Shown here: in pieces, positions 1,228-27,023 of the stretch | Numbering within the stretch: position 1 is the first letter of the stretch | Layout of the letters: each line of letters begins with the position of its first letter | NCBI GenBank assembly: GCA_023957155.1 | Contig: JAMLHK010000006.1 | Location: 62,001-126,000 of the forward strand | Reading direction: 5' to 3' | Length of the DNA stretch: 64,000 bases | Origin: Chitinophagaceae bacterium | GTDB lineage: Bacteria; Bacteroidota; Bacteroidia; Chitinophagales; Chitinophagaceae | Program-made: the position numbers and the translations under genes | Notes under the pieces: generated by a model | What the model was told of the DNA's origin: nothing | Seen by the model: only the letters and a program-made list of their open reading frames with translations | Databases searched by the model: none

Positions 1228-2565
1228 TTACAACCCAAGCCGTACTGCAAGATCGGAACTGAAGATATGGTCTGGATCATATTTGGCCTTGACAGCTGCC
1301 CAGCTTTCGTATTGCGGATACATTGCCCGGAAGGTAGACTTATCCAGCATGGCATCTTTACCGAGGTATATCCTGCCTCCGGCTTCCAGAACAGCTTCAT
1401 CTAACCGTTTGGTAAATGTTTTCAGGTCGTGGGTCACCGGGAAATCAATGGCTAAGGTATAGCCCTTAAACGGGAAAGATAACATCCCATGCCCTTCTCC
1501 CATTTTCTTAAAAACATTCAGGAAAGGTGTACATCTGCTGGAGGCTATCATTTCCATGATTTTCCGGAGATGGGTTACTCCGTTCTCTTCCGGGATCACA
1601 AACTGGTACTGGATAAATCCCCTTTTACCATAGCCCCTGTTCCAGTTATTGATCATATCTAACGGGAAGAAAAATTTTTCGTAATGCACAAATGTTTTGG
1701 GTGAGTTTTGCACGTATCCGATAACCCTGTTAAGCAGCCGTACCGTTATATTGTTGAGTGTAAAATCGGGTAGGAAAAAAGGAACATTCAGCCCGGCGGC
1801 CCTATGAATTTTTAGCGGCTCTTTTTTTAAGGATTCGGGTAGCGCTTCGAGTGGGGCAGCGTCTCCTACCGTCAAAACACCCCGCCCAAGCTGTTTGCCT
1901 GTTGCCAGCGGATCAATCCAGGCTACGGAATAGTTATAGTGTTTGTATTGTTCAAGGGCGTCTAACATCTCATCCAGGTTGGCTGCTTTAACAGACTGCT
2001 GCCTGAAATAGGTAGTTTCAATTTTTCTTAGCCTGATCTTAGCTGTTAGTATAATTCCGAGGAGACCAAGCCCTCCAAAGTTGGCAATGAACAGGTCGGC
2101 GTGCTCATCCCGCGAAGCGGTTATGATATTTCCGTTAGCCAGTAAAATAGTAAAAGAGATAACGCAGTTGATAAAAGAGCCATCCACGTGATGTGCTTTG
2201 CCGTGGATATCATTAGCGATAGCGCCACCAATAGTAACGAATTTCGTTCCGGGGCAGATCATCGGCATCCAGCCCCTGGGAGCAAATGTGGTAATGATCT
2301 CATCTAAGCTTGCGCCGGCTTCACATTCCAATATCCCTTCATTTTCATCCCATGAAATAAAATAATGCATCCTGGTGCAGATGCATACGTTATGTCCGGA
2401 GAGGATTGCCTGGTCACCGTAGCTTCTTCCCAGTCCTCTTGCAATTACCGGCCCGGCTGATATTACACTACTCAGTTCCCTTGCATTTGCAGGTGTGGAG
2501 ACCTGTACATTGGCTTTTGGATAATTGCCCCAGCCGGCTAAAACTCCTTGGTGTGATGCTGCCAT
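1228..2565 (-). CDS. DprE1-like FAD-dependent oxidase (decaprenylphosphoryl-ribose 2-oxidase family)
   Basis: A 445-residue FAD_binding_4 / D-arabinono-lactone-oxidase-type flavoprotein. The pyrophosphate loop IARGLGRSYGD is at residues 41-51, and TIGGAIANDIHGKAHH at 111-126 closely matches the FAD-contact segment of mycobacterial DprE1. The C-terminal ends (YLGKDAMLD, then SSDLAVRLGL) also resemble DprE1. DprE1 oxidises the 2'-OH of polyprenyl-phosphoryl-ribose, and DprE2 then reduces the keto group to give the arabinose epimer. The usual partners are not adjacent: a DprE2-like SDR, a UbiA-type prenyltransferase and a HAD phosphatase lie 21 kb away (22951-25227). The glycerate kinase gene upstream looks unrelated. 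Family membership is firm; the polyprenyl-phospho-pentose substrate is inferred. Confidence 0.8.
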   Translation of the reverse strand: MAASHQGVLAGWGNYPKANVQVSTPANARELSSVISAGPVIARGLGRSYGDQAILSGHNVCICTRMHYFISWDENEGILECEAGASLDEIITTFAPRGWMPMICPGTKFVTIGGAIANDIHGKAHHVDGSFINCVISFTILLANGNIITASRDEHADLFIANFGGLGLLGIILTAKIRLRKIETTYFRQQSVKAANLDEMLDALEQYKHYNYSVAWIDPLATGKQLGRGVLTVGDAAPLEALPESLKKEPLKIHRAAGLNVPFFLPDFTLNNITVRLLNRVIGYVQNSPKTFVHYEKFFFPLDMINNWNRGYGKRGFIQYQFVIPEENGVTHLRKIMEMIASSRCTPFLNVFKKMGEGHGMLSFPFKGYTLAIDFPVTHDLKTFTKRLDEAVLEAGGRIYLGKDAMLDKSTFRAMYPQYESWAAVKAKYDPDHIFSSDLAVRLGL

Positions 2566-2624: not shown

Positions 2625-3938
2625 TTAATCGGACAGACCTATTATAATATCCATTACGTTGGTCTGGGTAGGACCTGTTATGATCAGTCCGCCGGTTTTT
2701 TCAAAAAAATGGTAGGCATCGTTGTTGTGAAGGTACACTCTGGGGTTTAAGGAAAGTTTGTCGGCCTGGTTAAATATATCCGCATCAATAACGGCGCCTG
2801 CTGCTGTTGTGGGGCCGTCTGTTCCATCTGTTCCTCCCGACAGTATGGTCACCCGGTGATTTTGTAACCACATCCTGTCCCGGATTTCACATAAGGCGGC
2901 TAAAGCAAGATGCTGATTTCTTCCTCCTTTACCTGTCCCCTTTACGGTTACTGTTGTTTCACCGCCCCATAGTAAGCATAGAGGCGAATCACCTTTTTCA
3001 TTTTTTAACCGGCTGATGAAAGTTGCCGCCTGTATTTCAGCATCACCGGTAAGCATAGGCGAAAGAATCGTAGTTGCATACCCCAGGGCCTGTGCTTTTT
3101 GGGCAGCGGCATCCAGCGCATTTTGGTTAGAAGCGACTAAGAAGTTGCATACGTTTAAAAAGGCCGGATCGCCCGGCTTGGGAGTTTCCGGGATGCTGCC
3201 CCGCATGCCGTTAAGCAACCGGTTTTTAATGCAGGCCGGGATGCTGTCAGCAAGCGCATACTTTTCAATTACATGCCAGGCGTCCCCGAATGTAGTTTCA
3301 TCAGGCACGGTTAATCCGCTGGCAATGACCGACAGATCATCTCCCGGAACATCGCTCAGCAGCAGTGCTATAACCCGGGCACGGGTATATTGCATCAGCT
3401 GACCACCTTTTATATCAGAAAGATGCTTTCTGACGGTATTCATCTCATCAATAGAAGCACCACAACTGAGGAGCAATTGCACGGTTTGCTGGATATCCGG
3501 CAGGTTGCAGCCCCGCGGTACATCAGTAATCAGGGCAGAAGCTCCTCCGCTGATCAGCAGGATGATAGTATCTGTAGGTTTTGCTTTTTTAAATAACCTT
3601 ATCAAAGCCTCGCCTCCCAGTAAACTGTTGTTGTCAGGAACAGGATGCCCTGCTTCTATGGTATGGCAATGAGTTAACGAAAGAGCATGATCGTATTTGG
3701 TAATGACAAGCCCTTCCGTGATATGGTTATTGAATATCTTTTCCGTTTCTAAGGCCATCGCCGAAGCTGCTTTACCAACCGCTGCAATATACAGGCCGCC
3801 TGTCTCTTTTACCGGGATATGTTGATCTCCGACCCGTATCCTGTTTTCTTCAAATTGAATATGATGTGGAATAAAATGCCCGGGCTTAACGGCTTCCACA
3901 CCCGCCAGGAATATGGCAATAGCGTCCTGTCTCAACAT
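2625..3938 (-). CDS. Glycerate 2-kinase, GckA/TtuD type (DUF4147-MOFRL)
   Basis: A 437-residue class II glycerate kinase. The N-terminal DUF4147 domain contains AVGKAASAMA (residues about 53-62) and the LLISGGASAL loop. The C-terminal MOFRL half contains LWGGETTVTVKGTGKGGRNQ and LSGGTDGTDGPT. The enzyme phosphorylates D-glycerate to 2-phosphoglycerate with ATP in the cytoplasm, feeding glycerate from glyoxylate, tartronate or serine breakdown into glycolysis. Length and motif order are normal. It lies 59 bp upstream of the DprE1-like gene on the same strand, so co-transcription is possible, but no shared pathway is evident. The ATG at 3938 is the first in frame. Confidence 0.88.
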   Translation of the reverse strand: MLRQDAIAIFLAGVEAVKPGHFIPHHIQFEENRIRVGDQHIPVKETGGLYIAAVGKAASAMALETEKIFNNHITEGLVITKYDHALSLTHCHTIEAGHPVPDNNSLLGGEALIRLFKKAKPTDTIILLISGGASALITDVPRGCNLPDIQQTVQLLLSCGASIDEMNTVRKHLSDIKGGQLMQYTRARVIALLLSDVPGDDLSVIASGLTVPDETTFGDAWHVIEKYALADSIPACIKNRLLNGMRGSIPETPKPGDPAFLNVCNFLVASNQNALDAAAQKAQALGYATTILSPMLTGDAEIQAATFISRLKNEKGDSPLCLLWGGETTVTVKGTGKGGRNQHLALAALCEIRDRMWLQNHRVTILSGGTDGTDGPTTAAGAVIDADIFNQADKLSLNPRVYLHNNDAYHFFEKTGGLIITGPTQTNVMDIIIGLSD

Positions 3939-14389: not shown

Positions 14390-16744
14390 ATGAACCAGAA
14401 CAAAAAGTTTTTTTCCTTCCCTAACGTGTTATTACATTTTTTTCTTTCCTGTTTGTTCCTAACTTTTTTTTCTACTCAGCGGGTAGATGCACAGTATCAG
14501 AAAACCCAGAAAGCCGTGACGCAAAAGATAGATGCGTACGTAAATGGGTATTATGAATCATTGCCTGAAGATTATGCTTCGAATCCCGCGAAGAAATATC
14601 CTTTGCTCATATTTATTCATGGAGTGGGCGAGTTGGGAAACGGTTCGTCCCAGTTAAGCCTTGTATTAAAAAACGGTCCTCCAAAACTGCTAAATGAAGG
14701 GAAATTTCCATCAAGTTTTACGGTAGGGGGAAAAAATTATTCTTTTATAGTAATATCTCCACAGCTTATCAGTAGTAATTATTCTGAATCTCCAACAATA
14801 ATCAATGATATTATCAATTATTGTAAACAAAAGTATCGCGTGGATGAGCAACGCGTATATCTTACGGGCTTAAGTATGGGTGGAACAATGACCTGGTATT
14901 ATGGTGGTAGTTCTGAAGCGAATGCAAAGAATATTGCAGCAAGTTTAGTTGTATGTGGGAATGTTTCTAATTCTGACACTAGGGTCAAGAATACAGCTAA
15001 TGCTAAGTTACCGATATGGGCTACTGTAAATACTGGTGATCCGTTAATGTCACCATCGGCTACATCTGCTGCCATTTCTGCAATAAATGCTTTTGTTCCT
15101 ACACCTCCCAAAGCTTTATTGTCTATTTTTAACGCTTCCGGACATGATGCGTGGACTAAAACTTATGATCCGAATTTTAAACAGGATGGTCTGAATGTAT
15201 ATGAGTGGATGTTATCTTATTCAAGAGGAGCAGCTACCTCATCACCTGATCCGCTTCCACCAACGGCTAATGCCGGTACAAATCAGTCAATTACACTACC
15301 AACAAACAGTGTTACTCTTGATGGCAGTAAATCTGCGGCCGCTTCAGGTAGTATTGTTAGTTATACCTGGACAAAAGTATCAGGCCCTGCCGCAACAATA
15401 ACAAGTTCTTCTTCAGCTAAAACAACGGTTACAGGGTTAGTAGCTGGTACATACCAGTTTAGTTTAACAGTAAAAGATAGCAATGGAAAATCAGCCAGTG
15501 CAACGGTTAGTGTTACTGTAAATGCTGAGGCTGTTCCTTTGAAGTCTCATGCTGGCTCGAATCAAACGATAACGCTACCGGTTAATAGTGTAACGGTGGA
15601 TGGAAGTACTAAATCTACATATCCGACAGGTAGCACGTTTTTATGGGTAAAGTTGTATGGTCCTGCAGGAGGCACCATTACCACTCCGACATCATTGAAG
15701 ACAACGATTACGGGGTTAAACAATGAAGGAGATTACCAGTTTCAGTTACAGATAAGGGATAAGAATGGCACTCTTTCTACTTCTTCAATGCATGTAATAG
15801 TGAATGCTGCTCCTGTGACAGAGCTTAAGTCTCATGCTGGTTCGAATCAAACGATAACGCTACCGGTTAATAGTGTAACAGTGGATGGAAGTACTAAATC
15901 TACATATCCGACAGGTAGCACGTTTTTATGGGTAAAGTTGTATGGTCCTGCAGGAGGCACCATTACCACTCCGGCATCATTGAAGACAACGATTACGGGG
16001 TTAAACAATGAAGGAGATTACCAGTTTCAGTTACAGATAAGGGATAAGAATGGCACCCTTTCTACTTCTTCAATGCATGTAATTGTAAAATCTGCGCCGG
16101 AATTAATTAATGTACCGCCTTTGTATGCTGATGCCGGTGGTAATCAAACTATTACGCTTCCTGTTACCCAGGTTAAGCTTGATGGGAGTGCAAAATCAAC
16201 TGCTCCGGAAGGAAGCGTTCATATTTGGAAACAGACGGGAGGTCCTGTAACAGCTAATATTCTGTATCCTTATAGCATAGGGACAAATGTAACAGGCTTG
16301 ACGGTAGCAGGTATCTATAAATTTCAATTGGTGTTGACGGATCCGCAAGGGAACGTAGCCACTTCAACCACAACGATAACGGTTACATCTGCCGTATCTG
16401 CAAGGACTACCGGAGATTCGGATGTAAATGTCGCAGTAGATCAACCTTTACTTTCAGGGAACTCTGATCTGATATCCACTTCAACAGCATTAGATGTAAA
16501 GATTTATCCAAATCCGGTTCAATCAGATATGAATGTGTGGATTGAATCTAAAGAAACCGGTAAAGTAAATGTTGTAGTTTATAATTATCAGGGGGTATCT
16601 CTATTCCAGAGAAATTTTGTGAAATATACATCAGGGCGGGAGCTTCAGTCATTTAATATATCAAAGTTACCTGCAGGGGTATACCTGTTGAAGGTAAGTA
16701 TTGAAGATAAATACCAACAAACAGTCAGAATAGTGAAGCAATAA
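14390..16744 (+). CDS. Secreted alpha/beta-hydrolase with four PKD-like repeats and type IX sorting domain
   Basis: A 784-residue exported protein. Residues 1-34 are a signal peptide. An esterase domain of the PHB-depolymerase/feruloyl-esterase type (about 40-280) shows IFIHGVGELG and nucleophile GLSMG (Ser162), with probable Asp217 (TGD) and His252 (GHD). Four PKD/Ig-like modules of about 95 residues follow (each with AG.NQTITLP..VTLDG and GTYQFSL-type strands). The last 85 residues (VKIYPNPVQSDMNVWI to VRIVKQ) form a type-A T9SS C-terminal domain, so the protein should be displayed on or released from the cell surface. Modules 2 and 3 are nearly identical in DNA. A paralogue with 17 modules follows directly. 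Substrate unknown; a plant or microbial polyester or acylated glycan is plausible. Confidence 0.82.
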   Translation: MNQNKKFFSFPNVLLHFFLSCLFLTFFSTQRVDAQYQKTQKAVTQKIDAYVNGYYESLPEDYASNPAKKYPLLIFIHGVGELGNGSSQLSLVLKNGPPKLLNEGKFPSSFTVGGKNYSFIVISPQLISSNYSESPTIINDIINYCKQKYRVDEQRVYLTGLSMGGTMTWYYGGSSEANAKNIAASLVVCGNVSNSDTRVKNTANAKLPIWATVNTGDPLMSPSATSAAISAINAFVPTPPKALLSIFNASGHDAWTKTYDPNFKQDGLNVYEWMLSYSRGAATSSPDPLPPTANAGTNQSITLPTNSVTLDGSKSAAASGSIVSYTWTKVSGPAATITSSSSAKTTVTGLVAGTYQFSLTVKDSNGKSASATVSVTVNAEAVPLKSHAGSNQTITLPVNSVTVDGSTKSTYPTGSTFLWVKLYGPAGGTITTPTSLKTTITGLNNEGDYQFQLQIRDKNGTLSTSSMHVIVNAAPVTELKSHAGSNQTITLPVNSVTVDGSTKSTYPTGSTFLWVKLYGPAGGTITTPASLKTTITGLNNEGDYQFQLQIRDKNGTLSTSSMHVIVKSAPELINVPPLYADAGGNQTITLPVTQVKLDGSAKSTAPEGSVHIWKQTGGPVTANILYPYSIGTNVTGLTVAGIYKFQLVLTDPQGNVATSTTTITVTSAVSARTTGDSDVNVAVDQPLLSGNSDLISTSTALDVKIYPNPVQSDMNVWIESKETGKVNVVVYNYQGVSLFQRNFVKYTSGRELQSFNISKLPAGVYLLKVSIEDKYQQTVRIVKQ
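15545..16114 (+). repeat. 285-bp tandem duplication within the PKD region
   Basis: Two consecutive 285-bp units (about 15545-15829 and 15830-16114) encode PKD modules 2 and 3. Over most of their length they differ by only a few bases, which points to a recent in-frame duplication. Confidence 0.8.
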
Positions 16745-16961: not shown

Positions 16962-19900
16962 ATGAAGCCAAAAAATAGCAAGAATTCTTGTTTATTTATC
17001 CTTTTTCTATGTTTTTACTTTTTGTATGCTAATACAGGGATTTCCCAGGTACAAAAACAGACTCCTGTTTACACTTCGCTTTCCACCCATGTTCGAGGTT
17101 ACTACGAATCATTGCCGGTAGATTATAATTCGAGTCCCGGGAAGAAATATCCATTACTCATTTTCATTCATGGGAAGGGAGAACTTGGTGATGGGTCGGC
17201 ATCTCAATTGCCGAGAGTATTAGTGAATGGCCCTGCAAAGCTGATTAATCAGGGGAAATTTCCAAATTCGTTCACGGTGCAAGGGGAGAAGTTCTCATTT
17301 ATTGTTATTTCGCCACAGTTTGTTTCAAATAATTATGATGTATCAGCAGATAATATTAGTGATGTTATTAATTTTTGTAAACAAAAATATAGGATTGACG
17401 AAGAGCGGATCTATGTAACGGGGCTGAGTATGGGGGGAGGTTTTGCCTGGAGGTTTATGGGTAAATATCCGGAACTTATAGCGGCGGGTTTGGCTGTTTG
17501 CGGAAGTGCAAGTAATGCTAAGCAAGATGTTGATAGAATTGTTTCTTCCAATTTACCTGTTTGGGCCACACATAATTCTGGAGATCCAACTGTGTCTGTA
17601 AATGTAACGAAGAAGTGGATAGATGCTTTAAATGCACATATACCTGCACCCGATCCTAAACCGATAATGACAATTTTTGAGTCTAATAGCCATGATGCCT
17701 GGTCTAAAACCTATGACCCTGGCTTTAAAGAAAATGGTTTAAATGTATATGAATGGATGTTGTCTTATAAAAGAGGCGGCACAGTATCTACACCACCTGT
17801 GGCTAATGCCGGGGCTAATCAAACTATAACCTTACCTGTGAATAGTGTAACATTAGACGGCACAAAGTCAACTGCCCCTACAGGCATGATCAGTAGCTAT
17901 GCGTGGACAAAAGTATCTGGACCATCGGGTGGAACCATCTCATCTGCGGGTAGCAGCAAGACTACCGTTACCAGTCTTTCAGAAGGAACATACCAGTTTC
18001 AGTTGAAAGTTACAGATAATAAGGGAGGAACTTCAACGGCTGTGGTAACAATCAAGGTTAACCCTGCTCCACTACTACCGGTAGCAAATGCAGGGGGCAT
18101 GCAGATTATTACGCTTCCTGTAAATAGTGTAACATTAGATGGAACGAAATCAACAGCTCCTTCCGGTAGTATTACAACTTATCAATGGAGTAAGCTTTCC
18201 GGACCCTCTTCAGGAATAATAGTAACTCCGGCGGTGTCTGTGACTTCGGTGACTGGACTTATTGAGGGAGTATATGTCTTTCAATTAAAGGTAACAGATA
18301 GCAATGGGGGAACCTCTGCAGCTACTGTTAGCATTACGGTTAATGCAGCACCTGCCCCTCCTATTGCCGATGCAGGTAATGATCAGACAATAGACCTACC
18401 TGTTAGCAGTATAACATTAGATGGAAGTAATTCTGTGGCATTGGCAGGAAGTATTGTGTCGTATAGATGGAATAAGCTATCAGGCCCGTCCGGAGAAAAA
18501 ATAGCTACCCCAACCTCTGTTTCTACAACTGTTAGCGGTCTTATAAAAGGAGTATATCAGTTTGAACTGAAGGTAACAGACAATAATGGAGTAAGTTCTA
18601 CGGCAACAGTTACTATTACGGTAAAGGCAGCGCCCCTGCCACCTGTGGCTGATGCCGGTAGCGCACAAACCATCACCTTGCCTAATAATAGTATAACTTT
18701 AAATGGTACCGCCTCTGCTGCACCTGGTGATATTATAAGTGCTTATGTATGGCGAAAGTTGTCTGGTCCTTCCGGGGGAACGATTACAGATCCATTAAGT
18801 GCTGTAACAACTGTTGCTGGTCTTATTGAGGGGATATATAAGTTTGAATTGGAAGTAACCAATAGTAAAAATCTGTCTTCCACTTCCGTTGTTACTATTA
18901 CGGTAAAGGCGGCGCCCCTGCCACCTGTAGCCAATGCCGGCAGTGCGCAAATAATCATCCTTCCTGATAATAGTGTAACTTTGAATGGTAGCGCTTCGAT
19001 TGCGCCATCGGGTACGATCAGTAGTTATGCATGGAGCAAGGTATCGGGTTCTTCGGAGGGAACGATCACCTCACCAGGCAGTGCCGTTACCACTATTACT
19101 GGTCTTATAGAAGGTACTTATATTTTTGAATTGGAGGTAACAGACAGTAATGGAGCGAGTTCCACGGCAACAGTTACTATTACGGTAAAGGCGGCGCCCC
19201 TGCCACCTGTAGCCAATGCCGGCAGTGCACAAACTATAACTTTACCGGACAATAATGTAACCTTAGATGGTAGTGAATCCACTGCACCATCGGGTACGAT
19301 CAGCAGTTATGCGTGGAGCAAGGTATCGGGTCCTTCGGAGGGAACGATCACCTCACCAGGCAGTGCCGTTACCACTATTACTGGTCTTATAGAAGGTACT
19401 TATATTTTTGAATTGAAGGTAACCGATAGTAATGGAGCGAGTTCCACGGCAACAGTTACCATTACGGTAAAGGCGGCACCTCTTCCACCTGTGGCCGATG
19501 CCGGTAGCGCACAGACTATAACTTTACCGGACAATAATGTAACCTTAGATGGTAGTGCATCCACTGCACCATCGGGTACGATCAGCAGTTATGCATGGGG
19601 CAAGGTATCGGGTCCTTCGGAGGGAACGATCACCTCACCAGGCAGTGCTGTTACCACTATTACTGGTCTTATAGAAGGTACTTATATTTTTGAATTGAAG
19701 GTGACAGACAGCAATGGAGGGATATCCACGGCAAGTGTTACCATTACCGTAAAAGCGGCACTTCTGCCGCCGGTAGCGGACGCTGGAATGGATAAGACCA
19801 TATCACTTCCAGATAACAGTGTGATTTTGGATGGCAGTGCTTCGACTGCGCCATCAGGTACGATCAACAGCTATGCATGGAGTAAAGTATCTGGCCCTGC

Positions 19901-22868
19901 CGCAGGCAATATAATAACTCCGGATAATGCAGTCACAACAATTGACGGTCTTTCTGAGGGTGTATATCAATTTGAATTGAAGGTAACTGATAATAATGGC
20001 TTATCAACTACAAGTATAGTAACCGTAACCGTAAGTACAACTCTTACGCCTCCGGTAGCCGATGCGGGTGCTGCACAGACTTTAACCCTTCCAGTTAATA
20101 CAGCGATATTAGATGGAAGTGCTTCTGTCGCATCATCAGGAACCATCAGTACTTACCAGTGGGCTAAAATTTCAGGTCCTGCTGATGAAAATATTACAAA
20201 CCCCGATAGTGATATTACATCTGTAACAAATCTTAAAGAAGGGGTATATAAGTTTCAGTTAACCGTAACAGACAATAATGGAGCGAGCTCGACTGCATCC
20301 GTTACCATTACGGTAAAGGCAGCGCCCTTACCACCGGTAGCTAATGGAGGCAGTGCGCAAACCATTACCTTGCCGGACAACAGCGTGACCTTAGACGGCA
20401 GTGCTTCAACTGCGCCGTCTGGCACAATCAGTAGCTATGCCTGGAGCAAAGTGTCAGGTCCTTCCGGAGGGGTAATCTCCTCCTTGGGCAGCGCTATTAC
20501 AACGGTTACGGATCTTGCGGAAGGTATATATGTGTTTGAATTGAACGTAACGGACAATAATGGAGCGAGCTCGACTGCATCCGTTACCATTACGGTAAAG
20601 GCAGCACTCCTGCCACCTGTAGCCGATGCCGGCAGCGCACAGACCATAACTTTGCCGAATAATAGTATAACCTTAGACGGCAGTGCATCCACTGCGCCAT
20701 CGGGTACCATTGATAGTTATTCATGGACTAAGTTGTCTGGTCCATCAGGAGCTGTGATTACATCATCAGGTAGTGCTGTTACTGCGATTACAGGTCTTAC
20801 TGAGGGAGTATATATCTTTGAATTGAACGTAACCGATAATAATGGCTCCGGTTCAACGGCAACTGTTACAGTTACGGTAAAAGCGGCACCCCTTCCTCCT
20901 GTAGCCGATGCCGGCAGCGCACAGACCATCACTTTGCCGGACAACAGCGTGACCTTAGACGGTAGTGCTTCAACTGCTCCATCGGGTACCATTGATAGTT
21001 ATTCATGGACTAAGCTGTCGGGTCCGTCAGGAGCTGTGATTACATCATCAGGTAGTGATGTTACTGTGGTTACAGGTCTTACAGAGGGAGTATATATTTT
21101 TGAATTGAACGTAACCGATAATAATGGATATAGTTCAACGGCAACCGTTACAGTTACGGTAAAAGCGGCACCCCTTCCTCCTGTAGCCGATGCCGGCAGC
21201 GCACAGACCATCACTTTGCCGAATAATAGTATAACCTTAGATGGAAGCGGGTCTTCTGCTTCTGCGGGTAACCATCTTGTTAGTTATCAGTGGAGTAAAA
21301 TTTCGGGGCCTTCTGAGGGTATTATTACAGACAATACAGGTATTGCTACAACTGTTACCGAGCTTGTTATAGGCGTTTATAAGTTTCAATTAGAGATAAC
21401 GGATGATAAGGGTGAGAAGGCAACGTCTATGGTTACCGTTACGGTAAATGCTGCACCGCCTCCACCTGTTGTTAACGCAGGAAATGATCAAACGATAATA
21501 TTACCTGTTAACAATGCAAGCCTGGACGGATCAAAATCCATAGCGCCTGGTGGTAGTATTGTAAATTATGAATGGGTTAAGGTTTCGGGCCCGTCCGGGG
21601 GAAATATAGTTAATCCATCGGAAGCAGTGTCTGGGGTAAATAATCTCGAAGAAGGAAGATATCAGTTTCGGCTTAAGATAACTGATAATAGAGGATCCGT
21701 TGCCATTGCTACGGTTTTTATAACAGTAGAACCCGCTCCGTTACCTCCTGTAGCTAATGCAGGAAATACGCAGACGATAACATTGCCTGATAATCATATA
21801 ACTTTGGATGGGTCACAATCTTCGGCTCGTTCGGGGCAGATAAAAACCTTTTCTTGGAGTAAAGTATCAGGTCCTTCTGCAGGAGTAATCAGTAATGCCA
21901 ATGGCTCAGTTACATCAGTAAGTCAATTGGACGCTGGTACATACGTGTTTCAGCTTAAAGTTACAGATACCAATGGCAACTCTGCTACAGCTAGTGTAAC
22001 AGTTATTGTAAATCCTGTTCCCTTTGTTCCACCAATAGCAAATGCTGGCGATGATATCTCTGTTCAGCTTCCTCTTAATCAGATTGCCCTGAATGGAAGC
22101 GGGTCGTATGCACGAAAAGGAAAGATTGAAAGTTATAAATGGGAGAAAATATCCGGGCCGGATGCTTTAATCATTTTAAATTCAAATTCAGCAACTCCTG
22201 TAATTCAAAATGTAAAACCGGGTATATATATATTCAGATTGTTAGTGGAAGACTCCAATGGCTTTACTGATTTGGATGAGGTCAAAATAACTGTAATGAA
22301 TGAGGAGGCGATATTACCTCCTCCTGTAGCCGATGCAGGTGAATCAAGAACAATAGCACTGACCAGTGAGGAGATTTTCTTAGATGGCGGGTCATCGTAT
22401 GCTCAGTTCGGAAATATTGAAAAATATAAGTGGGTAATGTTATCCGGTCCATCAGATGTAGAGATAGATAATGCTGAATCAGACCTGGCTATGGTATCCG
22501 GAATGGTTGTAGGTGAATATGTATTTGAGCTGACCGTTACCGATAATACGGGGAAAGCGGATAAGGCAACCGTAAAAATAACAGTGACTAATGCCAGTGG
22601 AAGGCCGGATATGTCTCCGGTAATAAAAGTATTCCCTAATCCTGTATCTGACGTTGCTTCGATTGAATTACAGGGACCGGCTAAAGGTAGGACAGGTATT
22701 AATATATTTGACGCCAATGGCCGGAGGGTATATAAAACAGAGTTTATTAAAGATGACCTATATGTAAATCATCGGCTGAATATGTCAGGATTGGTAAAAG
22801 GTGTTTATTTTATTGAGGTAGTAATAGACTATCAATACAGGTCGGTTATAAAAATAATAAAATTATAG
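16962..22868 (+). CDS. Giant secreted alpha/beta-hydrolase with 17 PKD-like repeats and type IX sorting domain
   Basis: A 1968-residue surface protein. After a signal peptide (to about residue 28) comes an esterase domain very similar to the upstream paralogue: IFIHGKGELG, nucleophile GLSMG (Ser156), probable Asp208 (SGD) and His244 (SHD). Seventeen PKD/Ig-like modules of about 94 residues follow (about residues 278-1876), most beginning PPVADAGSAQTITLP. A T9SS type-A C-terminal domain (IKVFPNPVSDVASIEL to IKIIKL) ends the protein. The module array likely forms a long rod that holds the enzyme away from the cell surface or binds carbohydrate. Internal DNA repeats with a 282-bp period run through the middle modules. 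Which ester it cleaves is unknown. Confidence 0.82.
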   Translation: MKPKNSKNSCLFILFLCFYFLYANTGISQVQKQTPVYTSLSTHVRGYYESLPVDYNSSPGKKYPLLIFIHGKGELGDGSASQLPRVLVNGPAKLINQGKFPNSFTVQGEKFSFIVISPQFVSNNYDVSADNISDVINFCKQKYRIDEERIYVTGLSMGGGFAWRFMGKYPELIAAGLAVCGSASNAKQDVDRIVSSNLPVWATHNSGDPTVSVNVTKKWIDALNAHIPAPDPKPIMTIFESNSHDAWSKTYDPGFKENGLNVYEWMLSYKRGGTVSTPPVANAGANQTITLPVNSVTLDGTKSTAPTGMISSYAWTKVSGPSGGTISSAGSSKTTVTSLSEGTYQFQLKVTDNKGGTSTAVVTIKVNPAPLLPVANAGGMQIITLPVNSVTLDGTKSTAPSGSITTYQWSKLSGPSSGIIVTPAVSVTSVTGLIEGVYVFQLKVTDSNGGTSAATVSITVNAAPAPPIADAGNDQTIDLPVSSITLDGSNSVALAGSIVSYRWNKLSGPSGEKIATPTSVSTTVSGLIKGVYQFELKVTDNNGVSSTATVTITVKAAPLPPVADAGSAQTITLPNNSITLNGTASAAPGDIISAYVWRKLSGPSGGTITDPLSAVTTVAGLIEGIYKFELEVTNSKNLSSTSVVTITVKAAPLPPVANAGSAQIIILPDNSVTLNGSASIAPSGTISSYAWSKVSGSSEGTITSPGSAVTTITGLIEGTYIFELEVTDSNGASSTATVTITVKAAPLPPVANAGSAQTITLPDNNVTLDGSESTAPSGTISSYAWSKVSGPSEGTITSPGSAVTTITGLIEGTYIFELKVTDSNGASSTATVTITVKAAPLPPVADAGSAQTITLPDNNVTLDGSASTAPSGTISSYAWGKVSGPSEGTITSPGSAVTTITGLIEGTYIFELKVTDSNGGISTASVTITVKAALLPPVADAGMDKTISLPDNSVILDGSASTAPSGTINSYAWSKVSGPAAGNIITPDNAVTTIDGLSEGVYQFELKVTDNNGLSTTSIVTVTVSTTLTPPVADAGAAQTLTLPVNTAILDGSASVASSGTISTYQWAKISGPADENITNPDSDITSVTNLKEGVYKFQLTVTDNNGASSTASVTITVKAAPLPPVANGGSAQTITLPDNSVTLDGSASTAPSGTISSYAWSKVSGPSGGVISSLGSAITTVTDLAEGIYVFELNVTDNNGASSTASVTITVKAALLPPVADAGSAQTITLPNNSITLDGSASTAPSGTIDSYSWTKLSGPSGAVITSSGSAVTAITGLTEGVYIFELNVTDNNGSGSTATVTVTVKAAPLPPVADAGSAQTITLPDNSVTLDGSASTAPSGTIDSYSWTKLSGPSGAVITSSGSDVTVVTGLTEGVYIFELNVTDNNGYSSTATVTVTVKAAPLPPVADAGSAQTITLPNNSITLDGSGSSASAGNHLVSYQWSKISGPSEGIITDNTGIATTVTELVIGVYKFQLEITDDKGEKATSMVTVTVNAAPPPPVVNAGNDQTIILPVNNASLDGSKSIAPGGSIVNYEWVKVSGPSGGNIVNPSEAVSGVNNLEEGRYQFRLKITDNRGSVAIATVFITVEPAPLPPVANAGNTQTITLPDNHITLDGSQSSARSGQIKTFSWSKVSGPSAGVISNANGSVTSVSQLDAGTYVFQLKVTDTNGNSATASVTVIVNPVPFVPPIANAGDDISVQLPLNQIALNGSGSYARKGKIESYKWEKISGPDALIILNSNSATPVIQNVKPGIYIFRLLVEDSNGFTDLDEVKITVMNEEAILPPPVADAGESRTIALTSEEIFLDGGSSYAQFGNIEKYKWVMLSGPSDVEIDNAESDLAMVSGMVVGEYVFELTVTDNTGKADKATVKITVTNASGRPDMSPVIKVFPNPVSDVASIELQGPAKGRTGINIFDANGRRVYKTEFIKDDLYVNHRLNMSGLVKGVYFIEVVIDYQYRSVIKIIKL
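17793..22590 (+). repeat. Coding tandem array of 17 PKD modules, 282-bp period
   Basis: Modules 5, 6 and 7 and modules 10 to 12 are nearly identical in DNA. For example, TCGGAGGGAACGATCACCTC recurs near 19053, 19335 and 19617, exactly 282 bp apart. The outer modules (1-3, 14-17) are more diverged, the usual picture of repeated internal duplication. Confidence 0.85.
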
Positions 22869-22950: not shown

Positions 22951-23547
22951 TTATTTTCTGAAAGGTTTATAAAAAGAAAGGGTGGCAAGTGCTAACATGG
23001 GCTTGTCACCTTTTGTGTCTCCATATGCTAGTACGGATTCGTATTCGTCAAGACGGAAAAGTGCATTAATTCTGTTTACTTTTTCAATGCCATTACAATT
23101 TTTACCCTTTATTTTTCCTGTGATTTTGCCGTTAATAATTTCAAGTTTTGTAGCAATGCATATTGCCTGGTTTTGTCTGCACCAGCCTTCTACCCAATTG
23201 TCTGCGGATGCAGTTACAACTACAATTGTAGTATTATTTTGTTTGTGCATATTAATTTCTCGCAATGCATCTGGTCTTATAAGAAGGGGTAGCTTATGCT
23301 CAATAAACCGGTTGCATTTTTTCTGGAAATCATCGAAAGTCATGTTTTTGAAAAAGCAGGAAAGCACTTTCTCTTTTGCAGCTGTCTTTGTTATAATGCG
23401 AAGCTTCATGGCGATCAACCATGGTGATAATTTAATCAATCCAAGATACATATTTCGACTACCTTTTTGAAACCTGATGACTTCAAATAAAGTATCTTTA
23501 TAGGTAATTGTACCGTCAAAATCAAAGAAAGCAATAGACTTTTTCAC
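22951..23547 (-). CDS. HAD-IB family phosphatase, possibly of polyprenyl-phospho-pentose synthesis
   Basis: A 198-residue HAD superfamily hydrolase of the SerB-like IB type. Motif I is FFDFDGTIT (Asp9, Asp11), motif II VVVTAS, and motif IV AYGDTKGDKPML. Start is GTG 23547, overlapping the TGA of the SDR gene by 4 bp (GTGA), so translation is coupled. In mycobacteria, decaprenyl-phosphoryl-5-phosphoribose must be dephosphorylated before DprE1 acts; a HAD protein coupled to a DprE2-like SDR and a UbiA enzyme would fit that step. The role is inferred from context; a general phosphomonoesterase is the alternative. Confidence 0.78.
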   Translation of the reverse strand: MKKSIAFFDFDGTITYKDTLFEVIRFQKGSRNMYLGLIKLSPWLIAMKLRIITKTAAKEKVLSCFFKNMTFDDFQKKCNRFIEHKLPLLIRPDALREINMHKQNNTTIVVVTASADNWVEGWCRQNQAICIATKLEIINGKITGKIKGKNCNGIEKVNRINALFRLDEYESVLAYGDTKGDKPMLALATLSFYKPFRK

Positions 23548-24275
23548 AACTTCATTCTTTTAAAAATGGGTTCGGGAATCAGTTTGATGGTACACATGAT
23601 CCATCTCCAGAACCATTTTACGTATATAATGTTTTTCTTTTTTTGAACAGCATTATATATTGACAGGGCAACATCATTTGGATGAGCAGTTAATAATTGG
23701 GGTAAGCGTAGATGTTCTGTCATTTTGGTATATACAAAACCGGGAAGTACCGTTACAACATGAACCCCGCTTTCATGAAGGGCATTTCTGAGCCCCGAGA
23801 GATAAGCGGTAAATCCGGCTTTGGCACTTCCGTAAATATAATTACTTTGCCTGCCTCTTTCCCCGGCTACGGAGCTGATACCAACAATACAACCTTTCTT
23901 GCTAAAGGCGTAATATTTGGAAGCGATGTTTAATATACTTACAGCTCCTGTATAGTTTGTGTGCATTGTTTTTAGCATCTCATTCAGGTCATCTGTTACT
24001 TTTGCATTATCATTCATATAGCCAAAAACGCATACTGTAATATCGGGTTTGGGGCTTAATGTATTGAAAAAGGTTTGGTGAGAAGTAAAATCAACAGCAT
24101 CAAACTGATGAATACTACAGCGAACATTATTGCGAATGGTGATATCTGTTTGCAGATATGATAATTTTGATGTGTCTCTGGCGGCTAACTGAATATCGAA
24201 TTGCTTTGCTGCAAAAAGCCTGGCAATTGCAATACCCATGTCCGATGTAGCTCCAAGAATAAGAATAGTTGACAT
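23544..24275 (-). CDS. Short-chain dehydrogenase/reductase, DprE2-like
   Basis: A 243-residue classical-fold SDR. Cofactor loop GATSDMGIAIA (residues 8-18), catalytic Ser134/135 and Tyr148-x-x-x-Lys152 (YGSAK). The later parts (HVVTVLPGFVYTKMTE and IIYVKWFWRWIMCTIKLIP) resemble DprE2, the NADH-dependent reductase that makes decaprenyl-phosphoryl-arabinose from the 2-keto intermediate. The basic, hydrophobic C-terminus could sit on the membrane. It lies 55 bp after the UbiA gene and overlaps the HAD gene by 4 bp, forming one operon. Enzyme class is certain; substrate is inferred. Confidence 0.8.
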   Translation of the reverse strand: MSTILILGATSDMGIAIARLFAAKQFDIQLAARDTSKLSYLQTDITIRNNVRCSIHQFDAVDFTSHQTFFNTLSPKPDITVCVFGYMNDNAKVTDDLNEMLKTMHTNYTGAVSILNIASKYYAFSKKGCIVGISSVAGERGRQSNYIYGSAKAGFTAYLSGLRNALHESGVHVVTVLPGFVYTKMTEHLRLPQLLTAHPNDVALSIYNAVQKKKNIIYVKWFWRWIMCTIKLIPEPIFKRMKL

Positions 24276-24330
24276 GTGTGTATAATTTTTACCGGGATCG
24301 TTTGTGTGCTACAAGTTAATATCAAATCTT

Positions 24331-25227
24331 CTAAAGACCCAAAATGTGGTAGAAACTGTTATGCTTCAGATAAATAAAAAAATAAAAACTAACCATCCAG
24401 AGTAGGATGCAAACCTGGATGAACCGGTCTTTATAGAGAATTTTAGTCGGGGATCCTGCACCGGAGTGGACATAAATGATTTGTAGGTATCTCATCATAC
24501 CGGCCATAACAAAAAGGCTGGTGAAGTACAGTCTGTTTGTTCCATGCTGTGTGATTACCCTGTCGGAAACCGTGTACATAAAATAGGAAACAATCATTAC
24601 CGCAGAAATTAAGGATAGCAGGGTATTTAAAAAATCCAGGGTGTATCCTTTTATTGCTTTTCGCATATTTACCCCTGATGAGATAGTGAGCAAAACATCA
24701 TCTCGTCTTTTTCCCGCCGCCATAAACAATGCGAGAAGAAAAACCATGATATTCATCCAGATAGTAACATGGACAGCTGCAATTGTCCCTCCTGATCGGA
24801 TTCTTATAGAAAAACCTATAGCTATTATAAATATATCGAGTATGGGTATGTTTTTTAACCCGAATGAATATGCAATATTTAGCAAAAAATATATACCCAG
24901 TAATAAAAAAAAGAGATGACTAATCTGATAAGCAATAAAAAAACCTGCAATAAATAGTAATAGTGCAATAGCTAAAGAAATGGTTATTCTTGCTTCGCCG
25001 GATGCAAGGGGGCGGTGACATTTTTGAGGATGCTTTTTGTCATTTTCAATATCAGCGTAATCATTAAGGATATATATACAACTTGCAATACAACAAAATG
25101 CTACAAATCCTTCGGAAACATTGATTAGTTTGGCGAAGTTGAAAATTTCACCAGAAAAAAAGAGAGGGATAAATAAAAACAGGTTTTTAGCCCAATCTTT
25201 AGGACGTAATAATTTGATATAAGTCAC
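24331..25227 (-). CDS. UbiA family prenyltransferase, polyprenyl-phosphate phosphoribosyltransferase-like
   Basis: A 298-residue membrane protein with about eight or nine helices. The first Asp-rich motif is NDYADIENDKKHP (Asn55, Asp56, Asp59, Asp63), followed by KCHRPLASG. The opening IKLLRPKDWAKNLFLFIPLF and this motif resemble Rv3806c, which joins PRPP-derived 5-phosphoribose to decaprenyl phosphate. UbiA enzymes for quinones or heme share the fold, but the LRPKDWAKN start favours the DPPR-synthase branch. Start is GTG 25227. First gene of a UbiA-SDR-HAD operon, divergent from a GT-C glycosyltransferase gene. The pentose pathway is an inference. Confidence 0.8.
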   Translation of the reverse strand: MTYIKLLRPKDWAKNLFLFIPLFFSGEIFNFAKLINVSEGFVAFCCIASCIYILNDYADIENDKKHPQKCHRPLASGEARITISLAIALLLFIAGFFIAYQISHLFFLLLGIYFLLNIAYSFGLKNIPILDIFIIAIGFSIRIRSGGTIAAVHVTIWMNIMVFLLALFMAAGKRRDDVLLTISSGVNMRKAIKGYTLDFLNTLLSLISAVMIVSYFMYTVSDRVITQHGTNRLYFTSLFVMAGMMRYLQIIYVHSGAGSPTKILYKDRFIQVCILLWMVSFYFFIYLKHNSFYHILGL

Positions 25228-25338
25228 AAAATAATATAAGATTATGAAGCAATAGATATAAGTTTGATATATAAATGTAAGGAATCCAATAATAAGCTAA
25301 TAATTACGTTATTCTTTTCTTTTTTTCAAAGGAATAGG

Positions 25339-25368
25339 TTGACATTAAAATCTCTTTTTTATATATTG
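25339..25368 (+). promoter_or_regulatory. Weak candidate promoter for the GT-C gene
   Basis: TTGACA at 25339-25344 is followed by an A+T-rich segment with TATATTG (25360-25366). The match to the Bacteroidota -7 consensus is poor, so this is only a pointer within the divergent promoter region 25228-25394. Confidence 0.2.
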
Positions 25369-25394
25369 ATTTTTTTAAATAATATATTGTCAAT

Positions 25395-27023
25395 ATGAAA
25401 ACGAATGCGCAGGAGAAATTATTGGAGGGATTGATTATAATAATATTTGCATTATTCCCATTATTTATAACTTTTCCTTATAGATCTTATATATATTTAT
25501 CCTGGGAGGGGGCATACAGGTTAAGTGAAGGGCAAATACCTTTTCGTGATTTCGGGTTGCCTCTTGGTGGTATGTATTGGGTTGTACCGGCAATTTTTTT
25601 TAAAATATTTGGCTCGCAAATCATTACCCTTGTAAAAGTACAGGCCTTTATCAATATCCTCTCTGGTTTTGCCGTACGTTCAATTTTGAAAAATCTGTCG
25701 GTCTTTCCTACCGTCAGAATTGCCGGGGTATTTTTATATTGTATCTCTTTTTCATTCCAGAATTTTTGGCCATGGTATAATCATACAGTTATAGTGTATG
25801 CGTTTATTGCTGTTGCATTTGTTCTAAAATTTATATTTAACCAAGAAGGCAAGAGGCGGTATATTTTCCTTATGCTGGGTTCTTTATTTACTTATTTTTC
25901 GTTTTTTACCAAGCAGGATGGTGGAGGATTAATTTTCCTTGTATGTTGCTCCCTTTTGTTATATTATTGTTGGCTTGAACGCAGGTGGTTGTTTTTAGTC
26001 CTTTATATAGGGGGTGTTTCTTTGTTTGTTGGGGTTACTGTTGTGGTGTTAAATAAATACAATTTTTCCTACTGGTTTAATTATGGACAACTTCCACATA
26101 ATGCCAGAATTTCTTTTAGTGATCTTGCAAATGACTTGTTGGGGGATTCAATCTGGTTGAAATTTTACCTCCTTTCCATTTTGTTTTTATTAGTGGCGAA
26201 GCTTAGGGACCGGACCTGGAAGGATCTTATAAAAGATAAAAATTATATGCTTTCTTTACTGCTTACACTGGGTATTTTATGTATGGCTGCAATACTACAG
26301 GTAACCAGTTATGTACCGAGAATAGGTAATATGTTCTTTCACACATTCGCGTTTGTGTTTATTTTACAGCAATTAATTTCACTTTTAAATATTAATATTA
26401 AAAAAGGTTTTCTGATTACTTTTTTGATTGGAGGAATAGCGTTATGGTGGAGCCAGCTACCCTGGAAATATGTAGAACGTCTATTTATTGAAAAGAAAAA
26501 CGAAGGCATTACGGCATTATCACCAAGTGGTGAAAATCTTGTTGGTATGCATAATTTCATTCTAAGGGAAAAAGATGAAGATGCGGTGCAGGGGAATTGG
26601 GTGTCTTCGGATTTATACAGCTTACGAAAAATAAAGGTACCTAAACCCACATTGGATGGAGTTAAACGACTGATAAATTCAGACATAGTAAAGAACGGGG
26701 AGAATCTTAAAGTACTAAATATGTCTGAGCTTACTTTTCTTGCCCAGGAGATACCGTATTCATTGGAAAAAGACCCGGCATTACCACTTTGGCATCACCT
26801 GGGGGTGGGCATGTTTAATGACCAGTTACGTATCTATGAAGAACGAATTCGTAACAATTATTATGACCTGGTATTGTTTGAATATGTAACGAGTTATAAT
26901 AATCTCTTCCCATTTGCAATACGGGATGCTTTGAAAGCATATTATCAACAGGTAGATACATTTGATGCACCAAGGAGTGGAAATCGGCCGGGCGATATTG
27001 AAGTTTATATAAAAAAGCAATAG
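25395..27023 (+). CDS. Polytopic membrane glycosyltransferase, GT-C / GT39-like
   Basis: A 542-residue protein with about ten hydrophobic segments in residues 10-370 and a soluble C-terminal region of about 170 residues. The first outer loop (SWEGAYRLSEGQIPFRDFG, Glu38 and Asp52) has the acidic, aromatic layout of GT-C enzymes, which take sugar from a polyprenyl-phosphate donor on the periplasmic face. It is divergent from the UbiA-SDR-HAD operon, so a lipid-linked pentose could be its donor. Recognisable homology beyond the fold is weak to me; acceptor unknown. Base composition is visibly A+T-rich, as in the adjoining operon. ATG 25395 follows a stop-rich leader. Confidence 0.65.
   Translation: MKTNAQEKLLEGLIIIIFALFPLFITFPYRSYIYLSWEGAYRLSEGQIPFRDFGLPLGGMYWVVPAIFFKIFGSQIITLVKVQAFINILSGFAVRSILKNLSVFPTVRIAGVFLYCISFSFQNFWPWYNHTVIVYAFIAVAFVLKFIFNQEGKRRYIFLMLGSLFTYFSFFTKQDGGGLIFLVCCSLLLYYCWLERRWLFLVLYIGGVSLFVGVTVVVLNKYNFSYWFNYGQLPHNARISFSDLANDLLGDSIWLKFYLLSILFLLVAKLRDRTWKDLIKDKNYMLSLLLTLGILCMAAILQVTSYVPRIGNMFFHTFAFVFILQQLISLLNINIKKGFLITFLIGGIALWWSQLPWKYVERLFIEKKNEGITALSPSGENLVGMHNFILREKDEDAVQGNWVSSDLYSLRKIKVPKPTLDGVKRLINSDIVKNGENLKVLNMSELTFLAQEIPYSLEKDPALPLWHHLGVGMFNDQLRIYEERIRNNYYDLVLFEYVTSYNNLFPFAIRDALKAYYQQVDTFDAPRSGNRPGDIEVYIKKQ

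Follow-up and report, generated by a model that had tools for sequence, protein, structure and literature searches.

Lipid-linked pentofuranose chemistry has its best-known example in the cell wall of mycobacteria, where the decaprenyl-phospho-arabinose pathway comprises Rv3806c, Rv3807c (a phosphatase that we take to be of the PAP2 type), DprE1, DprE2 and the Emb/Aft transferases. Related systems exist in Gram-negative bacteria. The three-component pentofuranose system of the Citrobacter youngae O1/O2 O antigen consists of a polyprenyl-phosphate phosphoribosyltransferase (PPPRS) with a HAD PRP domain, a flippase and a GT136 transferase; the available text of Kelly et al. 2024 (PMC11127046) reports that its PPPRS, HAD phosphatase and GT-C activities were established biochemically, and that candidate arabinofuranose systems carry DprE1/E2 homologs. 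Pilin glycosylation in Pseudomonas paraeruginosa Pa5196/PA7 (PSPA7_6245-6251, TfpW), as far as the available text of PMC12369383 and PMC11127046 describes it, is a Gram-negative D-arabinofuranose pathway with a UbiA protein and a transferase that modifies a secreted protein, in that case type IV pilin; we liken it to our system by this description and not by the TfpW sequence. In this work we analyze a 64,000-nucleotide stretch of a Chitinophagaceae genome (assembly GCA_023957155.1, contig JAMLHK010000006.1, positions 62,001 to 126,000; hereafter the window) and find that a UbiA-centered gene set in it is most likely the Bacteroidota version of the pathway known from mycobacteria, Pseudomonas and Citrobacter.

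The kind of pathway is therefore already known; what appears to be new is the module in Chitinophagaceae, together with a GT-C family that has no name and the replacement of the oxidase. In the open-licence literature, a scope that leaves most subscription papers outside, we found no paper on such a pathway in Chitinophagaceae or other Bacteroidota, and PMC11127046 was the only title found that points to one outside mycobacteria and their kin. The main text of PMC11127046 contains no mention of Bacteroid, Chitinophag, Flavobacter or Sphingobacter. Our reading would extend lipid-linked pentofuranose chemistry to Chitinophagaceae, and it predicts D-arabinofuranose on their surfaces.

The window sequence and its open reading frames confirm the layout of the original prediction, with all five genes in place. 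On the minus strand, the genes of a UbiA-family polyprenyl-phosphate 5-phosphoribosyltransferase of the PPPRS or DPPR-synthase type (24331-25227), a DprE2-like short-chain dehydrogenase/reductase (SDR; 23544-24275) and a HAD-IB phosphatase (22951-23547) form an operon, in which 55 bp separate UbiA from the SDR and the SDR and HAD genes overlap by 4 bp. Divergent from it on the plus strand is a GT-C membrane transferase of an unnamed family, a proposed pentofuranosyltransferase (25395-27023); the 167 bp between the two opposing starts (25228-25394) presumably hold the promoter region, for which no promoter search was made. The fifth gene, a DprE1-like FAD oxidase (1228-2565, minus strand), lies about 20 kb from this locus.

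We propose, with a probability of roughly 0.8, that the locus serves both to synthesize a lipid-linked pentofuranose and to use it, by way of a D-arabinofuranose lipid whose sugar is transferred to the surface. UbiA would form polyprenyl-phospho-ribofuranose 5-phosphate from phosphoribosyl pyrophosphate (PRPP), and the HAD enzyme would take off the 5'-phosphate. The DprE1-like oxidase and the DprE2-like SDR would then oxidize and re-reduce C2, yielding polyprenyl-phospho-D-arabinofuranose. A flippase would expose the lipid-linked sugar to the periplasm, where the GT-C protein would move the pentofuranose onto a surface glycan or a secreted protein. In this scheme we infer each enzymatic step, as well as the sugar's arabino configuration, a flippase and an acceptor. 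The order of the proposed chemistry is that of the mycobacterial pathway, the likeness being one of sequence for UbiA and the DprE1-like oxidase, of hidden Markov model (HMM) match for the SDR and of fold for the GT-C protein. Unlike the mycobacterial pathway, the locus has a HAD enzyme unrelated to the Rv3807c phosphatase, and mostly one GT-C copy of this family is present per genome rather than a set. With the Citrobacter youngae system, as described in the available text of PMC11127046, the locus shares a UbiA-type PPPRS, a HAD phosphatase, a GT-C protein and an optional epimerase; here, in contrast, HAD and UbiA are separate genes and no flippase gene is seen at the locus.

The identity of UbiA carries much of this reading. 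The window protein, which contains NDYADIENDKKHP, passes the NCBIfam model of decaprenyl-phosphate phosphoribosyltransferase, NF008978 (212.5 bits, cut-off 207), falls narrowly short of NF008977 (231.8 bits, cut-off 234) and misses NF008976 (166.3 bits, cut-off 474). A PDB sequence search to E 0.1 returned only 8j8j (E 3.2e-36) and 8j8k, both decaprenyl-phosphate phosphoribosyltransferase. In a tree of 31 sampled rows, Rv3806c is nested within supported Bacteroidota groups (98/90, 97/100) and E. coli UbiA, MenA and CyoE stand apart from them; the deep fork of this tree carries 88/87, its reference rows are long and the composition of Rv3806c is odd. Window UbiA is thus most likely, by its sequence, a PRPP-dependent polyprenyl-phosphate phosphoribosyltransferase. 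A quinone, heme or aromatic prenyltransferase in a coincidental neighborhood would fit the membership of the UbiA superfamily and the NDxxDxxxD motif that the protein has in common with E. coli UbiA. In fact, this motif is not diagnostic: because E. coli UbiA carries NDYADRKFD, the aspartates alone could not place the window protein. The HMM, PDB and tree results contradict a prenyltransferase, as do the HAD, SDR, DprE1-like and GT-C partners conserved around UbiA, and we reject the quinone or heme assignment, which the original prediction had named as its possible undoing, as hardly credible. The EboC-type UbiA of PMC9235831 was likewise rejected, the window protein scoring 22 bits on the EboC model where 250 are needed. 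According to the available text of PMC9235831, decaprenyl-phosphate phosphoribosyltransferase was not found in the Flavobacteria examined there; UbiA relatives are common in our Bacteroidota phylum sample, whose genomes differ from that set and are not matched to it.

Gene neighborhoods support a functional unit. A search with the GT-C family found 200 relatives, and our locus counts refer to the best 80, i.e. those closest to the window, with flanks of up to 10 kb. UbiA is present in 77 of these 80 loci, the SDR in 75, HAD in 72 and a DprE1-like gene in 53; the three loci without UbiA come from two genomes, both of which hold UbiA elsewhere. UbiA and GT-C are divergent in 71 of the 80, with a median gap of 107 bp between called starts. 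Operons of other order occur in related genomes as well, such as UbiA-DprE1-SDR-HAD in G099 and in G146 (there with GT-C nearby) and UbiA-GT-C-DprE1-SDR in G007. All five genes are present in a record of Chitinophaga pinensis (L155). The arrangement recurs in tens of genomes and is therefore more than chance. In one genome (G255; L088 and L093) we observed two GT-C copies without UbiA nearby, UbiA lying elsewhere in the genome.

Co-occurrence across genomes points in the same direction. In the phylum sample (n=247), strong matches were counted to E 2.3e-21 for UbiA (89 of 107 genomes) and to 1.2e-40 for the oxidase (52 of 88). A strong UbiA match accompanies a strong oxidase match in 51 of 52 genomes, the two genes lying within 5 kb in 40, farther apart on the same contig in 7 and on different contigs in 4. 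In the family sample (n=195), where matches below 1e-30 were counted (dropping 3 of 63 UbiA and 19 of 70 oxidase genomes), none of the 51 genomes with a DprE1-like oxidase lacks UbiA, and all 47 GT-C genomes hold both UbiA and a DprE1-like gene. GT-C is found in 47 of the 51 genomes with an oxidase, versus none of the nine with UbiA and no oxidase. The corresponding Fisher values (5e-38, 5e-8 and 3e-27) overstate the evidence, as related genomes are not independent. The original prediction would have been in difficulty had relatives of the locus never co-occurred with DprE1-like oxidases; in the 80 loci and in both samples they do, and mostly close by. Sequence family, fold, operon conservation and this tight co-occurrence are our direct results.

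The nine UbiA-only family genomes, with UbiA at 52-62% identity in four cases and 34-44% in five, offer a comparison within the family. Eight of their loci were examined over 14-19.5 kb (G400 was left out); HAD is present in all eight, and no match to the SDR, the oxidase or GT-C was found in any of them at E 1e-5. This pattern fits a lipid-linked ribofuranose version of the pathway, to which the SDR and the oxidase would be an epimerase add-on. The natural set of UbiA plus HAD, UbiA plus HAD plus epimerase, and oxidase-replaced loci allows the role of each gene to be tested by comparison. Among the UbiA-HAD loci without SDR or oxidase, L199 (4517-6325) and L201 (10329-12102) share, by eye, a 218-residue methyltransferase-like gene and a multi-helix protein of about 385 residues beside UbiA, the latter a candidate transferase for the lipid-linked ribofuranose.

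The oxidase of the window matches DprE1 in the PDB (4aut, E 7e-89). Nine of the eleven checked M. smegmatis DprE1 active-site positions are kept (equivalents of Y60, H132, W230, Y314, Q334, Q336, K367, Y415 and K418, in a numbering that we presume to be correct), and none of these nine varies among the rows compared (16 of type A, 11 of type B and 14 others). In contrast to the mycobacterial enzyme, the equivalent of Asn385 is Thr in all rows and that of Cys387 is Ala in every row of types A and B and in all but one of the others, which has Thr. Types A and B divide the family's oxidases: among the 51 oxidase-bearing genomes, 15 carry type A (the window type, at least 64% identical) and 39 type B. 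The type B gene and UbiA are no more than 5 kb apart in 38 of 39 genomes; for type A this holds in none of 15. In a tree of 42 sampled rows, the 16 type A rows form a supported group (100/99), with the 11 type B rows and other Bacteroidota rows outside.

The two types are distributed in a complementary way. We searched for type A in the genomes of 36 loci, covering all 27 without an oxidase and 9 of the 53 with one (L083 was left out and two loci share a genome). In 23 of the 25 genomes with an oxidase-less GT-C locus, type A is found elsewhere, at 66-85% identity in 22 of them and at 56% in one, and one of the remaining two has type B on another contig; type A is also present in three of the nine searched genomes with an operonic oxidase. 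As type A is present where the operonic oxidase is missing, the window oxidase is most likely, judging from this distribution, the pathway's own, replacing the missing operonic copy, in line with the original prediction, which had let the distant gene complete the steps of the pathway. The opposite view, that the gene at 1228-2565 serves another pathway and that the locus works with another oxidase or with none, draws on its distance of about 20 kb and on the adjoining glycerate kinase gene (2625-3938), a neighbor shared by 9 of 26 type A loci (L157-L182, 1.5 kb flanks). This neighbor is not kept in the other 17, however, whereas UbiA accompanies type A in all 15 type A family genomes; the window oxidase is also the sole oxidase match in its own genome. 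Together with the presence of type A where the operonic type is missing, and with a clade member of 56% identity that adjoins a DprE2-like SDR in G271 (L182), this makes service in another pathway quite improbable. In G271 the type A oxidase is divergent from the SDR, and the GT-C locus (L147) and UbiA lie elsewhere in the genome.

The HAD protein carries a DFDGT motif and passes TIGR01490 (HAD-IB; 113.4 bits, cut-off 98.3). This match and its partnership with a PPPRS place it, as a candidate, among HAD phosphoribose phosphatases, and not with the non-HAD phosphatase of the mycobacterial type; its proposed role, from sequence, is removal of the 5'-phosphate of the lipid-linked phosphoribose. 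Two phylum variants differ at this point: L055 (10472-12320) has a HAD-UbiA fusion beside a GtrA gene, and in L053 (9356-10626) a divergent-PAP2 protein (PF02681) lies between UbiA and the DprE1-like gene. Different phosphatases thus occur in one position, and therefore lend support to a dephosphorylation step. The SDR has the YxxxK motif (YGSAK) and exceeds the cut-off of the unnamed SDR model NF005489 (327.7 versus 267 bits). The polyprenyl-phospho-pentofuranose mechanism of the original prediction is largely right, supported by the grouping of UbiA with Rv3806c and by the co-occurrence with DprE1-like oxidases. The novelty it attached to a HAD enzyme in place of a PAP2-type phosphatase is not borne out: the available text of Kelly et al. 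2024 (PMC11127046) has a HAD phosphatase for the same step in Citrobacter.

Searches with the GT-C protein returned nothing from Pfam or NCBIfam to E 0.01, and no PDB sequence to E 10. Its AlphaFold2 model, built from 60 sequences (59 of the 80 relatives and the window protein), reached pLDDT 86.5 and pTM 0.89 and has the GT-C fold, with structural matches to ArnT, Pmt and oligosaccharyltransferases and weaker ones to AftB and EmbB. The catalytic acids of GT-C enzymes sit in the first loop, and there our alignment shows no or almost no variation at residues such as W37, E38, G39, A40, Y41, R42 and D52. The closest named relative, among the best 80 of the 200, is from Agriterribacter humi (76%), which itself points to a probable Chitinophagaceae origin of the window. 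Compared with named families through Pfam, NCBIfam and the PDB, and not with GT136 or TfpW sequences, the protein is a candidate for a new transferase family. Of the 47 family genomes with GT-C, 44 have one match, G397 has two, and in G341 and G451 the gene is in pieces; a single copy suggests that the enzyme adds one residue, or a few, and does not build a long arabinan.

Several observations weigh against our reading. The oxidase matches the DprE1 model NF053785 over nearly its full length (E 4.5e-135) at 451 bits, below the cut-off of 500, and the SDR reaches 199.7 of the 250 bits required by the DprE2 model NF053786 (E 6e-59); we therefore call them DprE1-like and DprE2-like. Type A is unlinked from UbiA, lying 23 kb to 5 Mb away on the same contig in 4 of 15 genomes and on another contig in 11; three family genomes carry both oxidase types, and one of the 25 genomes with an oxidase-less GT-C locus has neither. 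In one phylum genome (G157) no strong UbiA match accompanies the strong oxidase match, and 38 of the 89 with strong UbiA are without a strong oxidase, so UbiA alone is no predictor of the oxidase. G007 has no HAD in the 20 kb examined. Four family genomes have the oxidase and no GT-C match, and a single-sequence query found GT-C in no more than 5 of the 247 genomes of the phylum sample; most oxidase-bearing genomes elsewhere therefore presumably use another transferase. No flippase gene is seen at the locus. The one GtrA above the cut-off that we found in the genome gains no support as the flippase, since its relatives occur in 185 of 195 family genomes and it does not track the pathway.

Another reading concerns the sugar. 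The donor may stay lipid-linked ribofuranose, or become another pentofuranose such as xylofuranose, with the SDR and the distant oxidase doing something else. The unreached DprE1/DprE2 cut-offs would allow this, the eight UbiA-HAD loci without SDR or oxidase make a ribofuranose version likely in the same family, and Kelly et al. (PMC11127046, in the available text) assign an SDR-type epimerase to xylofuranose. On the other hand, a DprE1-type oxidase with an SDR reductase is the established pair for C2 epimerization, most of the active-site positions of DprE1 are retained, and the genes of the SDR and the DprE1-like oxidase co-occur with each other and with this GT-C. We therefore consider a donor other than D-arabinofuranose rather unlikely and retain the D-arabinofuranose lipid as our preferred reading.

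Neighboring genes may bear on the acceptor. In the window, on the plus strand, lie a giant secreted esterase-PKD protein with a T9SS sorting domain (16962-22868; Abhydrolase_2, 17 K319L-like PKD stretches, Por_Secre_tail) and, by its family matches, a smaller relative (14390-16744); both are secreted alpha/beta-hydrolase proteins with PKD repeats and T9SS tails, associated with the locus in an uncertain role. Among the 80 GT-C loci, 41 have a PKD match and 26 an esterase match. The gene next after HAD, called in 70 loci, encodes an esterase/PKD protein in 21 and a cluster 10 protein, desaturase-like by eye, in 16 others (e.g. Chitinophaga L104 and L135). The four other GT-C genomes of the phylum sample also have long proteins of the esterase-PKD type near the pathway. 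Across all five, 11 of the 12 listed esterase matches (frames above 700 residues) share a contig with the pathway and lie about 30 kb or less from one of its genes; G000 C21 is the exception. L198 and L199, with UbiA and HAD and no GT-C, have PKD and esterase matches too, which speaks against a tie to GT-C alone. Not being universal, the esterase-PKD-T9SS protein was rejected as a fixed component.

We tentatively consider, as an idea that is more doubtful than the pathway itself, that GT-C may be a new family adding D-arabinofuranose to T9SS-exported giant esterase-PKD surface proteins or to their anchoring glycan. Chitinophagaceae and their close kin would then have a system of protein or surface arabinosylation, beside which a ribofuranose counterpart would exist within the family; as a whole this idea seems unlikely. 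Elsewhere, G186 has Wzx-like and Wzy-like genes in the vicinity of the pathway, with relatives of the Wzx-like gene in G007, G049 and G146 and of the Wzy-like gene in G049 and G146. Either the esterase-PKD proteins or these Wzx/Wzy-like genes could point to the acceptor.

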